Positions 2,947-37,151 of a DNA stretch of 64,000 bases are shown here, piece after piece; within the stretch, counting starts at the first letter, position 1; each line of letters opens with the position of its first letter. A program made the translations under genes and the position numbers. The notes under the pieces were generated by a model. It saw nothing but the letters and a program-made list of their open reading frames with translations. It made no database searches and was not told where the DNA came from. Source of the stretch: Pseudomonas fulva 12-X (GTDB lineage: Bacteria; Pseudomonadota; Gammaproteobacteria; Pseudomonadales; Pseudomonadaceae); contig NC_015556.1 of the NCBI RefSeq assembly GCF_000213805.1, forward strand, positions 2,108,001-2,172,000. Direction: 5' to 3'.

Positions 2947-4440
2947 ATGTTCGAGTCAGCCGAGATCGACCACGTCATCGACAAGGCCACCTTCGCCGCC
3001 GAAGAGCAGGTGCTGCGCGAGGCCTTGCTCGAAGTTCAGTACGCGCTGCGCGAGCAGGGCCGGCATGCGGTGATCATCCTGATCAATGGCATCGAGGGCG
3101 CTGGCAAGGGCGAGACGGTCAAGCTTCTCAACGAGTGGATGGATCCACGGCTCATTCAGGTCAGCACCTTCGACCAGCAGACCGACGAGGAGCTGGCCCG
3201 GCCGGCGGCTTGGCGCTACTGGCGACAACTGCCGCCCAAGGGACGCATCGGCATCTTCTTCGGCAACTGGTACAGCCAGATGCTGCAGGGCCGGGTGCAC
3301 GGCGACCTGAAGAAGGACCAGCTCAACGGCGCCATCGAGGGCGCGCTGGGTCTGGAGCAGATGCTCTGCAACGAAGGCACGCTGATCTTCAAGTTCTGGT
3401 TCCACCTGTCCAAGAAGCAGATGCTCAAGCGCCTTGAGACTCTAAAGGACGACCCGCTGCACAGCTGGCGCCTGAGCCCGCTGGACTGGCAGCAATCGAA
3501 GACCTACGACAAGTTCGTGCGTGCCGGCGAAGACGTGCTGCGCCGCACCAGCCGTGATTACGCGCCCTGGTACATCGTTGCCGGCGCCGATGCCAATTAC
3601 CGCAGCCTGACGGTCGGGCGCATCCTGCTCGAAGGTTTGCAGGCGGCGCTGCGCGACAGCGCCGAACGGGCGCCGTTGCCGCATACCACGCCGCTGATGA
3701 CGCGCACCGACCAACGCAGCCTGCTCGACAGCCTGGATATGCGCCTGAGCCTGGCCAAGGCCGACTACCGCGAGCAGCTGGCGCAGGAGCAGGCGCGCCT
3801 GGCGCTGCTGATGCGCGATAAACGCATGCGCCGCCACGCACTGGTCGCGGTGTTCGAGGGCAACGACGCAGCGGGCAAGGGCGGGGCTATTCGCCGTGTG
3901 GCGGCGGCGCTGGACCCGCGCCAATACCGCATCGTGCCGGTCGCTGCGCCGACCGAGGAGGAGCGTGCGCAGCCCTATCTGTGGCGGTTCTGGCGGCATA
4001 TCCCGGCGCGCGGCAAGTTCACGGTGTTCGATCGCTCCTGGTACGGCCGGGTGCTGGTGGAGCGGGTGGAGGGCTTCTGCGCGCCCGAGGATTGGCTGCG
4101 CGCCTATGGCGAGATCAATGATTTCGAGGAACAGCTGAGCAACGCCGGCGTGGTGCTGGTGAAGTTCTGGCTGGCCATCGATGAGCAAACCCAGCTGCTG
4201 CGTTTTCGTGAGCGCGAGAACAATCCGGTCAAGCGCTTCAAGATCACCGAGGAAGATTGGCGCAACCGCGAGAAGTGGCCGCTGTATCGCGAAGCGGTTG
4301 GCGACATGGTCGACCGTACCAGCACCCGTCTGGCGCCCTGGACACTGGTCGAGGCCAACGACAAGCAGTTCGCTCGAGTCAAGGTACTGCGCACCATCAA
4401 TGATGCGCTGGAAGCGGCGTTCGAAAAGGCGAGGCATTGA
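2947..4440 (+). CDS. pap: Polyphosphate:AMP phosphotransferase (PPK2 class II)
   Basis: A 497-residue protein made of two fused PPK2 domains. It transfers phosphate from polyphosphate to AMP, giving ADP in the cytoplasm. Each half has its own P-loop: GIEGAGKGE at 48-56 and GNDAAGKGG at 305-313. Each is followed by the lid-type motif (ARPAAWRYWRQLP; AQPYLWRFWRHIP) and a Walker B-like segment (FFGNWYS; FDRSWYGR). Two-domain PPK2 proteins are the class that uses AMP. I chose ATG 2947, a few bases after AGAGGTG; a GTG six bases upstream is possible. No operon partner is evident. Confidence 0.93.
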   Translation: MFESAEIDHVIDKATFAAEEQVLREALLEVQYALREQGRHAVIILINGIEGAGKGETVKLLNEWMDPRLIQVSTFDQQTDEELARPAAWRYWRQLPPKGRIGIFFGNWYSQMLQGRVHGDLKKDQLNGAIEGALGLEQMLCNEGTLIFKFWFHLSKKQMLKRLETLKDDPLHSWRLSPLDWQQSKTYDKFVRAGEDVLRRTSRDYAPWYIVAGADANYRSLTVGRILLEGLQAALRDSAERAPLPHTTPLMTRTDQRSLLDSLDMRLSLAKADYREQLAQEQARLALLMRDKRMRRHALVAVFEGNDAAGKGGAIRRVAAALDPRQYRIVPVAAPTEEERAQPYLWRFWRHIPARGKFTVFDRSWYGRVLVERVEGFCAPEDWLRAYGEINDFEEQLSNAGVVLVKFWLAIDEQTQLLRFRERENNPVKRFKITEEDWRNREKWPLYREAVGDMVDRTSTRLAPWTLVEANDKQFARVKVLRTINDALEAAFEKARH

Positions 4441-4471
4441 TCTCTAGAGGCGATGTTCGCAGGCGCAGCGC

Positions 4472-4702
4472 TTACCCGCCCAGGTCGTTCTCGCGGTTGC
4501 GGCTGTCGAGAATCGCCTGGGATTGCAGCATGCGCGCGATATAGCGCGGCACCTGTCGCTCGGCCTCGTCGCGGGAAAAGTAGGGGCCTTCCAGCGTGCC
4601 CTCGCGGGTGCTGAAAAAGAAATGGCCATTGATGGTGCTGACCCGCTCGCTGCGAAAGTAAGTGGTCTGGCGGGTGTCTTGTGCGCGCTGGATGCTTGCC
4701 AT
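4472..4702 (-). CDS. Small conserved hypothetical protein
   Basis: A 76-residue protein (MASIQRAQDTRQTTYFRSER...) with an NGHFFFSTREGTLEGPYFSRDEAERQV core that reads like a short beta-hairpin domain and then a helical tail. It resembles a small Pseudomonas family of unknown function, named only from memory. ATG 4702 has a GAGG ribosome binding site nine bases upstream; the longer version from 4732 has none. It converges with the polyphosphate phosphotransferase gene (31 bp apart). No signal peptide or membrane segment is seen. No function is assigned. Confidence 0.7.
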   Translation of the reverse strand: MASIQRAQDTRQTTYFRSERVSTINGHFFFSTREGTLEGPYFSRDEAERQVPRYIARMLQSQAILDSRNRENDLGG

Positions 4703-4783
4703 GAAATGCGCCTCAGGTGGGCCGAGCTTCATTCAGTGTAGCTGCGCTTCGCACGCGTGGCGGACGACCTCGCTTGCCGAGGT

Positions 4784-5185
4784 TCAGCGGCGATCCGGCA
4801 GGGTCTTCTGCTTGAGGATATACAGGCTGACCAGTACGGCGCTGGTGAGCATGAACAGGCGAGCCCAGATCAGCGGCACCAGCGCGCAGGAAATGCCGAT
4901 GCTCAACCACATCAGGCTGATGGCGTAGATCTTGGCCTTGCGTGGGATGCCTTCGCCGGCCAGGTAGTCGCGAATCCAAGGCCCTAGCCGCGGGTGCTCG
5001 ACCAACCAGAGGTAGAAGCGCTTGGAGCTGCGCATGAAGCACGCCGCAGCCAGCAGCAGGAAAGGCGTGGTGGGCAGTAGCGGCAGGAAGATGCCGAGCA
5101 CGCCCAGCGCCACGCTCAGCCAGCCGATGGTCAGCAGGCAGTAGCGCAGCAGCGGGTTGCGGGTCTCGAAGGGTTCGCGCGCCAT
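4784..5185 (-). CDS. ybaN: YbaN/DUF454 family inner-membrane protein
   Basis: A 133-residue membrane protein. Hydrophobic segments lie near residues 15-50 (two close helices, with the family-typical GVLGIFLPLLPTTPFLLLAAACF) and 88-122. The block after the second helix (RFYLWLVEHPRLGPWIRDY) is the DUF454 hallmark. The function of the family is unknown. It is followed in the same direction, after a gap of 16 bp upstream, by the YecA-family gene, so the two may be cotranscribed. Length matches the E. coli YbaN family. Confidence 0.88.
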   Translation of the reverse strand: MAREPFETRNPLLRYCLLTIGWLSVALGVLGIFLPLLPTTPFLLLAAACFMRSSKRFYLWLVEHPRLGPWIRDYLAGEGIPRKAKIYAISLMWLSIGISCALVPLIWARLFMLTSAVLVSLYILKQKTLPDRR

Positions 5186-34627: not shown

Positions 34628-35956
34628 TCAATGTGCCGGACGCCCGGCTATCTTTGCGCCCCATTGCTGCGTGGTGGCAATGATGCGTTCTTCGTCCAGG
34701 CGCGTCAGGCGGCCTTCGTCGAGCAGCGGCTTGCCGGCCACCCAGAGGTGCTCGACGCAGTGCCGCGAGGTGGCGTAGATCAGCTGCGAAACCGGATCGT
34801 ACACCGGCTGCTGGGCGAGGCCGCGCAGGTCGAAGGCGACGATGTCGGCGGCCTTGCCGAGCTCCAGCGAGCCGATTTCGCTTTCCAGGCCCAAGGCGCG
34901 GGCGCCGTTGAGGGTCGCCATGCGCAGCGCGCGGTGGGCATCCAGCGCGCTGGCCGAGCCGGCCACGGCCTTGGCCAGCAGGGCGGCGGTGCGGGTTTCG
35001 CCGAGCAGGTCGAGATCATTGTTGCTGGCTGCGCCGTCGGTGCCGATGGCCACGTTGACGCCGGCCTGCCAGAGCTTCTCGACCGGGCAGAAGCCGCTGG
35101 CCAGCTTAAGGTTGGATTCGGGGCAGTGGATCACGCTGCTGTTGGTGGCCACCAGCAGGGCGATGTCTTCGTCATCGATCTGCGTCATGTGCACGGCCTG
35201 GAAGCGCGGGCCCAGCAGGCCCAGGCGGTTCAGCCGCGCCAGAGGGCGCTCGCCGTGGTGCTCCAGGCTCTGCTGCACTTCGAAGGCGGTTTCATGGGCG
35301 TGCATGTGGATGCCGGCGTCCACTTCCTCGGCGAGGATGCGCAGTTTTTCCAGGTTCGCATCGCTGACCGTGTAGGGCGCATGGGGGCCGAAGGCGACGC
35401 TGATGCGCGGGTGGTGCTTCATGTCGTCGAACAGCGTCACGCCCTTGCGCAGCGCCTCGTCGGCATCCCGCGCGCCGGGGATGGCGAAATCCAGCACCGG
35501 GATGCTGATCTGCGCGCGCATGCCGCTGGCGTGCACCCGTTCGCAGGCCATCTCGGGAAAGAAGTACATGTCGGCGAAGCAGCTGATGCCGCTCTTTATC
35601 TGTTCGGCGATGGCCAGTTCGGTGCCGTCCTGCACGAACTGCTCATCGACCCATTTGGCTTCCGCCGGCCAGATGTGTTTCTCCAGCCATGTCATCAGCG
35701 GCAGGTCATCGGCCAGGCCGCGGAACAGGGTCATGGCGGCGTGGCCGTGGGCGTTGACCAAGCCGGGGGTCAGCAAGCGGCCGGGCAGTTCGCGAATTTC
35801 CGTCGCACCCTGGCGCAGGGCCTCGGCGCGTGGTGCGATCAGCGCGATGCGGCCATCGCGGATGCCCAGGCCATGCTCGTGGAGCACCACGCCGGCAGGC
35901 TCGACCGGTACCAGCCAGGTGGGCAGCAATAAGAGGTCGAGCGCAGCATCTGCCAT
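34628..35956 (-). CDS. mtaD: 5-methylthioadenosine/S-adenosylhomocysteine deaminase (TRZ/ATZ family)
   Basis: A 442-residue amidohydrolase. Metal ligands: NAHGH near 67-71, MHAHET (about 221-226), the HMTQID segment, and the Asp in [13 protein letters not shown] (about 307-319). In P. aeruginosa the orthologue deaminates 5-methylthioadenosine (MTA) to methylthioinosine, the first step of an alternative MTA salvage route that then needs MtnP and MtnA. Its position opposite the mtnA-like gene, 124 bp apart, fits this. Residue order and length are normal. Confidence 0.9.
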
Positions 35957-36080
35957 GGGCGGGTTTCCGTGGGCGAAAGCGCTGAGTCTATAGAGGAATG
36001 CCGCGGTCTTGAAGGTGCGCGGCGTGCGGCCGGCTGCCTGGCGGGCGTATACTGGCCGGCTTTCTAGGATGGAGTAGGTG

Positions 36081-37151
36081 ATGCGCGAGCGTTTGCTGGC
36101 TGCCGAACAGGTCGTGGGGTTCGTCTGGCGCGAGGGGGCGCTGCACGTGCTCGATCAGCGCCGCCTGCCCGGCGAGCAGGTCTGGCAGGCCTGTCACTCG
36201 GTGTCGGCGGTGGCCGCCATGCTGGACGAGGGTGCGCTGCGGGGCGCTGCCGCGCAGGTGATCTGCAGCGGCTATGGGCTGGTGCTGGGCGCCCGCCAGC
36301 GTGCAGACGAGGGCGCCGATTGGCGCGCCGGGCTGCAGGTCGATATCGACGCCTTGTGCGTGGCCGGCCTGCCGTCTGAAGAAGGCGAACGCCTGTTGGC
36401 GCGGATGCAGCAGCGCCTGGCGATCCTCAAGCCCGGCGCGCAGCCCCTGGCCGTGCTGGAGGACGAAGCCGGCGGCGCCCATCAGCGCGACCGCGAAGCC
36501 AATCTGGCCATGGCCCAGCTGGGCGTGGAGCTGATCCGCGGCTTCCAGGGCAACCTGCAGAATCTCTTGAGCATCGGCAGTGCCGGCGCGCTGGCTGGTG
36601 GCGGCATCGGTACCGCCCTTGGCGTGGTGCGCGCGGCGCAGCTCGAAGGGCTGCTGGAGCGTTGCTACCTGGGTGAAAGCAGGCCGTTTCTGCAAGGCGC
36701 GCGCCTGGCCGCCTGGGAGCTGCATCAGGAAGGTATCGCCGTGGCGTTGAGCGCCGATGCGGCGCTCGCCCATGTCATGAAGGAGCGTGGCATCACCTGG
36801 GCCATCGTCGGTGCCGAGCGGATCGCCGCCAATGGCGATGTGCTGGGCGTGATCGGCACCTATCAGCTGGCCGTAGCAGCCATGCACCATGGCGTGCGGC
36901 TGATGGTGGTGGCGCCGAGTGCGCTCATCGACCTGCAACTGGAGAGTGGCGAGGACGACTTTCATGATCTGGGCCACGCGCCGTTGGCTTACGCGGCCAA
37001 TGAACGCATCGAGGGCGTCGATGAAGTGACGCCGCGTTACGACGTGACGCCCGCCGACCTGGTGGATTTCCTGGTCACCGAGCGCGGGGTGATCGAGCGA
37101 CCGGATGCCGCCAAACTCACCCAGTTGATGTGTCGCAAGCGTCTGCATTGA
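36081..37151 (+). CDS. mtnA: MtnA-like protein lacking the catalytic residues (eIF2B-alpha/beta/delta fold)
   Basis: A 356-residue protein with the whole length of 5-methylthioribose-1-phosphate isomerase: [27 protein letters not shown] and the terminal [24 protein letters not shown] match MtnA closely. But the catalytic positions differ. The Cys of the usual THCNAGALA is Gly166 (here SIGSAGALA). The catalytic Asp of GADRI is Glu246 (GAERI). The substrate NK before IGTYQLA is Gly256-Val257. The RGA motif (54-56), the Arg before Met (108-109) and the Gln of [12 protein letters not shown] are kept. Sequence has no frameshift. So the fold and substrate pocket are probably intact but isomerase activity is doubtful. 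ATG 36081 follows GGAGTAGG. Confidence 0.85.

Follow-up and report, generated by a model that had tools for sequence, protein, structure and literature searches.

An MtnA homologue without its catalytic residues is retained in Pseudomonas fulva 12-X and its relatives as a probable pseudoenzyme

Introduction

The best-described counterparts of the protein studied here are the S-methyl-5-thioribose-1-phosphate isomerases (MtnA), with solved structures from B. subtilis (2YRF, 2YVK) and P. horikoshii (6A34). In the B. subtilis enzyme we take Cys160 and Asp240 to be catalytic and an Asn-Lys pair to contact the substrate. MtnA is part of the MtnP-MtnA-MtnB-MtnC-MtnD route from MTA to methionine, in which MtnP is the source of methylthioribose-1-phosphate (MTR-1-P) and MtnD is the acireductone dioxygenase (ARD). 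The non-enzymatic regulatory subunits of eIF2B (alpha, beta, delta) and ribose-1,5-bisphosphate isomerase serve as further points of comparison. Here we describe an MtnA homologue of Pseudomonas fulva 12-X that carries none of these MtnA residues, and follow its counterparts and the remainder of the route through the genus.

Results

An open, full-length mtnA homologue between mtaD and gyrA

The window, i.e. the whole stretch of 64,000 nucleotides that was analysed, carries the gene of interest between two neighbours:

34628..35956, minus strand: divergent amidohydrolase, called mtaD (MTA deaminase), above the cut-off of NF006549 'TRZ/ATZ family hydrolase'
36081..37151, plus strand: ORF of a putative MtnA-homologous pseudoenzyme, 356 aa, above the cut-off of NF004326 and below that of TIGR00512
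37377..40184, plus strand: ORF of gyrA, the downstream neighbour, with the start at MGELAKEI chosen by us

As originally noted, the frame of the mtnA homologue is open and full length (356 aa); it starts with ATG at 36081, and an in-frame GTG lies just before it at 36078. The encoded protein (window protein) passed the model of the broad MtnA subfamily, NF004326, with 310.2 bits (cut-off 271) and failed the MtnA equivalog model TIGR00512 with 247.4 bits (cut-off 279). An AF2 model (pLDDT 84.7), for which MtnA structures were the best solved matches, predicts an MtnA fold over the full length. Antisense to mtnA, a 386-codon open frame extends over window positions 35988-37148 (minus strand), whose openness is most likely a side effect of codon use and high GC.

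The downstream gene is presumably gyrA, and the divergent amidohydrolase we assume to be MtaD. The latter name also rests on PMC6302742. Among 177 fetched mtnA loci, some of them with short flanks, 148 showed mtaD and 170 showed gyrA alongside, and the place beside mtaD, described from the start as the normal one, is thus indeed usual. Thirteen of the loci without mtaD in the flank (L049, L051, L079, L081, L082, L084, L085, L086, L087, L091, L093, L095 and L128) are exactly the 13 loci of the Cys-less type TYGNAGALA; mtaD was also undetected beside 16 further loci, mostly from Stutzerimonas.

Catalytic positions are replaced throughout the clade

Three sites in the reading frame differ from MtnA at positions assigned to catalysis or substrate contact:

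36576..36578, plus strand: codon 166, Gly where B. subtilis MtnA has the presumed catalytic Cys160; Gly in 21/21 clade proteins
36816..36818, plus strand: codon 246, Glu where the presumed catalytic Asp240 stands; Glu in 21/21 clade proteins
36846..36851, plus strand: codons 256-257, Gly-Val replacing Asn-Lys; Asn and Lys in 0/21 clade proteins

The register was set by aligning an intact Pseudomonas MtnA (P0035) to B. subtilis 2YRF, the 21-residue tag offset of which was counted by hand. Cys160 and Asp240 of 2YRF map to the columns of Gly166 and Glu246, where the alignment of P0035 with the window protein is gapless. Accordingly, Gly166, within SIGSAGALA (residues 164-172), occupies the Cys column and Glu246, within GAERI, the Asp column. 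All 63 fetched genomes with mtnB and mtnC (mtnBC+) have the Cys. ORF reading and alignment register together confirmed the replacements noted at the outset, namely Cys to Gly166, Asp to Glu246 and Asn-Lys to Gly256-Val257.

The nearest relatives are 76-95% identical to the window protein and full length without exception. They include proteins or genomes named P. straminea, P. argentinensis, P. flavescens, P. punonensis, P. seleniipraecipitans, and P. daroniae, which NCBI places in Phytopseudomonas. We aligned 21 clade rows, comprising the window protein, 17 of 19 clade matches (P0004 and P0005 were left unaligned), and three loci, some of these rows being closely similar. Cys, Asp, and Asn-Lys were missing from all 21. 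The change is therefore lineage-wide, as an alignment with relatives had been proposed to reveal, and a sequencing error is excluded because the 20 other rows carry Gly166 and Glu246; the open frames of the clade likewise dispose of a strain-specific pseudogene. The named clade proteins are publicly annotated as methylthioribose-1-phosphate isomerase despite their absent catalytic residues.

The methionine salvage route is absent from the genome

Searches of the P. fulva 12-X genome found neither mtnP nor mtnC, and the best match for mtnB reached 66.8 bits against a cut-off of 137. Because mtnP, mtnC, and an above-cut-off mtnB are all missing, the MtnP-MtnA-MtnB-MtnC-MtnD route is absent from this genome, mtnK, mtnN, mtnW, and mtnX lying outside the search; what a working MtnA depends on, substrate supply by MtnP and the downstream steps, was not found. 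A second, intact MtnA elsewhere in the genome had been considered and was rejected, since the MtnA homologue is the sole IF-2B-family match. The initial expectation that either another MtnA exists or salvage is absent was thus borne out in its second form for this route. Neither mtnP nor mtnC turned up in any of nine named genomes (0/9 each), namely seven clade members together with P. yangonensis and P. cremoricolorata.

Loss of the catalytic Cys recurs in the genus and follows loss of mtnP

We surveyed 159 Pseudomonas genomes drawn evenly from the genus. MtnA sequences came from fetched loci for 151 of them and were read by eye from tblastn alignments for the other eight; proteins shorter than 345 aa (including L026) and the duplicate L001 were excluded from the genus alignment. 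Every genome has exactly one MtnA homologue (159/159). MtnC scored over its cut-off in 64 genomes and was not found in 95, while MtnB was over cut-off in 63, the same genomes as mtnC, plus one with a split gene, and below cut-off in 96 when the split one is counted there. MtnP was present in 89 genomes (88 over cut-off, and G105, under cut-off with an in-frame stop) and not found in 70. The in-frame stop in mtnP of G105 and the division of mtnB of G034 over two pieces apparently reflect recent pathway decay, or else assembly errors.

Of the 89 genomes with mtnP, 88 keep the Cys, versus 14 of the 70 without. Genomes with mtnP, mtnB and mtnC all retain the Cys and indeed all four residues (64/64 for both). 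Those with mtnP but lacking mtnBC have the Cys in 24/25 and all four residues in 23/25, one other being hidden by N (in G085, a run of N cuts short the readable part of mtnA and conceals the Asp and Asn-Lys state), and those lacking mtnP and mtnBC have them in 14/70 and 10/70, respectively. Among the 57 Cys-less genomes, 54 have Gly at this position, 2 have Ser and 1 has Ala. Fisher's test of mtnP against Cys gives 2e-28, a value that ignores kinship. For the ten mtnP-negative genomes with all residues, either mtnP must have gone recently or the enzyme must serve some other purpose. Conversely, MtnP stays in the 25/159 mtnP-positive genomes that lack mtnB and mtnC (e.g. G014, G008, G064), 23 of which have the four MtnA residues; retention of MtnP and MtnA where MtnC and an above-cut-off MtnB are missing means that methylthioribulose-1-phosphate must have another fate there, one possibility being an aldolase shunt.

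How often the Cys was lost was read from a tree built on gyrA and mtaD that covers the named loci and the 151 fetched genomes, with L016 and the eight tblastn-read genomes excluded. At least 13 changes of Cys state are required if reversals are allowed. With losses treated as irreversible and weak branches collapsed, there were 10-12 losses, 8-10 of them to Gly; without collapsing the number rose to 15. Removal of L190, which covers 34% of columns and is loosely placed, left 12 or 10 losses. At least eight Gly in ten losses has P of about 6e-6 on the assumption of seven equally likely single-base replacements of TGC, a value that ignores mutation bias and hence shows that the site is constrained without measuring how strongly. 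In kinship-aware paired tests, mtnP versus Cys gave 12 supported pairs, about five for, none against, and seven uninformative (median p 0.06), and mtnBC versus Cys gave 15 pairs, about four for, none against, and 11 uninformative (median p 0.125).

One clear broken copy, or an assembly error, was seen in P. yangonensis (L026, about 4001-5079), where mtnA is frameshifted and Cys-less; the frameshift implies that mtnA can apparently be lost. In a subset of P. aeruginosa strains, according to PMC8382901, three adjacent methionine salvage genes and an unlinked fourth co-occur. Should these be the genes in question, their co-occurrence would fit a joint loss of an mtn cluster and mtnP.

Loss of catalytic residues has thus happened repeatedly, mostly where the substrate supply is missing, and the genes stay. 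This genus-wide tracking of mtnP loss, and the same pattern in MtnD described below, go beyond the original prediction.

MtnD is retained in parallel without its metal ligands

The acireductone dioxygenase family PF03079 was matched in 157/159 genomes, with one match each. Its metal ligands are, by our reading, His-His-Glu-His. These were present in all seven MtnD read from mtnBC+ genomes. Of the 95 genomes without mtnC, 93 have a PF03079 match; MtnD-like proteins were read from 80 of these and 13 were left out, with G007 cut by a contig end. The four ligands were complete in only 5 of the 80, and 75 showed losses. P. fulva 12-X itself belongs to the latter:

G000:C1:2229550-2230092 (L194:1213-1755, L291:5551-6093), 58 kb beyond the window: own-genome MtnD homologue, three of four ligands lost

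Here Val-Ala-Gln-His stands in place of His-His-Glu-His. The protein matched no NCBIfam model at E 0.001 and the Pfam ARD family only in part, and its structure model is of low confidence (pLDDT 62.7), with the six best solved matches all being acireductone dioxygenases. In 15 loci compared (7 mtnBC+, 8 not), the MtnD-like gene occupies the place of the mtnB-mtnD-mtnC genes of mtnBC+ genomes. The upstream ORF families F6, F0, and F3 occur in the same order in 15/15 loci, and F8 in 13 (families F0-F8 by single linkage, antisense frames included). At 14 further loci, MtnD-like proteins are 41-96% identical to the intact MtnD of G019. We also considered an unrelated cupin paralogue and rejected it on the single ARD match, the identity to MtnD, the conserved neighbours, and the structure matches.

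The clade MtnD-like genes have a median dN/dS of 0.21 (30/36 pairs), by which they are less constrained than mtnA (see below). Among mtnP-positive genomes without mtnC whose MtnD was read (n=22), at least one ligand was lost in 18. Erosion of MtnD in 18/22 while the MtnA Cys is kept in 24/25 mtnP-positive, mtnBC-negative genomes is what one would anticipate were the residues of each enzyme lost once its own substrate is gone. Perhaps MtnD, too, is a pseudoenzyme kept for a non-catalytic function.

The clade gene remains under purifying selection

We calculated dN/dS only for pairs with dS 0.15-1.0, which are non-independent. The median for clade mtnA was 0.14 (27/36 pairs, nine distinct genomes), next to 0.057 for mtaD and 0.021 for gyrA as neighbours. 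For MtnA in mtnBC+ genomes it was 0.07, and over all Cys-less pairs used 0.20. Constraint on the clade homologue is relaxed about twofold, given a dN/dS about twice that of intact MtnA, yet clearly present. Summed within-clade pN/pS was 0.23 in the sense frame versus 1.3-2.4 in four other frames, the 0.36 of one antisense frame probably reflecting shared wobble positions. Parsimony places the within-clade comparisons after the disappearance of Cys and Asp. Purifying selection acting beyond that point is hence seen both in the dN/dS of 0.14 and in the frame controls, and together with the clade-wide residue loss it supports, at the level of sequence, the pseudoenzyme reading put forward at the start.

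The main rival is a slow neutral or near-neutral decay, in which mtnA would be a leftover gene whose low dN/dS stems partly from the time before mtnP was lost. The approximate doubling of dN/dS over the mtnBC+ value, the frameshifted copy in P. yangonensis, and the still faster divergence of MtnD homologues (0.31 over 133 pairs from Cys-less genomes) agree with such a course. However, the in-frame signal persists in the very pairs that parsimony dates to after both catalytic residues had gone, and all 159 genomes have the MtnA homologue, whereas mtnC, mtnP, and an above-cut-off mtnB are missing from 95, 70, and 96 of them. Moreover, the Cys gives way nearly always to Gly. We therefore regard decay as rather unlikely.

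Constraint on the DNA instead of the protein, e.g. through the divergent mtaD/mtnA promoter region or transcription into gyrA, would suit the position of the gene between these two neighbours. Synonymous divergence is high along the gene, pS ranging from 0.27 to 0.62 in 36-codon windows with the lowest value in the first, and this, with the low pN/pS of the sense frame beside the four high ones, renders such constraint very improbable as the explanation.

The ligand pocket is eroded in the clade

Originally, the substrate-binding residues had been thought to be kept, and binding of a related sugar phosphate had been suggested. One of them is the following:

36240..36242, plus strand: codon 54, Arg of 'RGA', present in the window protein; only 2/21 clade proteins have Arg

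Arg54 and Arg108 are indeed present in the window protein, but clade-wide they are found in only 2 and 10 of the 21 rows, and as unconserved residues they are not evidence of a kept substrate site. His165 and Trp203 occur in none of the 21 and Gln205 in 17; position 167 is Asn in one, Cys in 15, and Ser in the window protein. With Arg54, Arg108, His165, Asn167, Trp203, Asn256, and Lys257 variable or replaced, the ligand pocket is eroded in this clade as judged from the alignment, which argues against simple binding of the original sugar phosphate or a close relative of it there. Other Cys-less lineages have Arg54 in 51/52 and Lys257 in 45/52 and keep most pocket residues, a pattern as compatible with changed binding or catalysis as with a scaffold.

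New catalysis or a new ligand would mean that the protein acts on another sugar phosphate, with Glu246 as the base or, for the majority of clade members, a Cys moved by one residue to position 167. Glu246 is clade-invariant, as are E199, R201, G206, N251, G252, D253, and T260; Cys167 is the majority residue at its position, and the retained pocket of the other Cys-less lineages would also be in keeping with this. On the other hand, the window protein itself has Ser at 167, and erosion has affected R54, R108, W203, N256, and K257 across the clade, so that we consider this reading quite improbable.

That the protein is still a working MTR-1-P isomerase, as the public annotation of its named relatives and the predicted intact fold would have it, is scarcely credible, with the catalytic Cys, Asp, and Asn-Lys gone from every clade protein, mtnP and mtnC missing, mtnB under cut-off, and a score below the cut-off of the MtnA equivalog model.

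Discussion

Our analyses suggest, with fair though not full confidence, that the MtnA homologue of P. fulva 12-X is a pseudoenzyme kept for a second, non-catalytic function. Of the interpretation first given for this gene, the pseudoenzyme itself, its lineage-wide nature, the lack of a second MtnA, and the absence of the route stand; the retention of the substrate-binding residues does not.

The pseudoenzyme would descend from a true MtnA. Once mtnP and with it the source of methylthioribose-1-phosphate was lost, MtnA would have been without substrate and its Cys would in time have been replaced, usually by Gly, with the gene staying in place. What keeps it is most likely a second role in Pseudomonas for which the MtnA fold serves binding or scaffolding, by analogy with the eIF2B regulatory subunits, which belong to this fold family and are non-enzymatic. 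Given the eroded ligand pocket, a protein-protein role appears likelier in the window's clade than sugar-phosphate sensing, and MtnD, which likewise persists after losing its metal ligands, is a candidate partner. More tentatively, and somewhat against the odds, MtnA and MtnD may have in common an ancient non-metabolic role in Pseudomonas, perhaps as parts of one complex, both being kept as pseudoenzymes on their own schedules (MtnD after loss of mtnB/C, MtnA after loss of mtnP); the window's clade would then be the most advanced case, in which only the hidden function is left.

Many known pseudoenzymes are paralogues that exist alongside an active copy. Here it is the sole genomic copy that, in ten or more separate lineages within a single genus, has lost catalytic residues, and yet it is kept. 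The loss goes in step with disappearance of the substrate source, and MtnD, from the same pathway, behaves alike, which makes Pseudomonas a natural replicated experiment for finding moonlighting functions of MtnA and MtnD. We found no report of a Cys-less MtnA in Pseudomonas in the literature searched, most subscription journals lying outside that search. For many Pseudomonas (57/159 genomes without the Cys), automatic annotation as MTR-1-P isomerase and the metabolic models derived from it are probably wrong.

Compared with known systems, the window protein differs from MtnA of B. subtilis (2YRF/2YVK) and P. horikoshii (6A34) in being without the Cys, Asp, and Asn-Lys, and its genome has neither the substrate-supplying mtnP nor mtnC. 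Ribose-1,5-bisphosphate isomerase is a distant match (78.5 bits against a TIGR00511 cut-off of 314). The eIF2B regulatory subunits resemble it in their evolutionary course and not by membership, as the window protein is bacterial, far closer in sequence to MtnA, and not known to belong to a complex. A further parallel is Pseudomonas MtnA with Cys-to-Gly, for example that of the P. putida cluster P0121, which is likewise kept despite loss of the Cys but, unlike the window protein, retains the Asp and most pocket residues; Cys-less lineages of this type are separate losses on the tree, P0121 itself being outside it.
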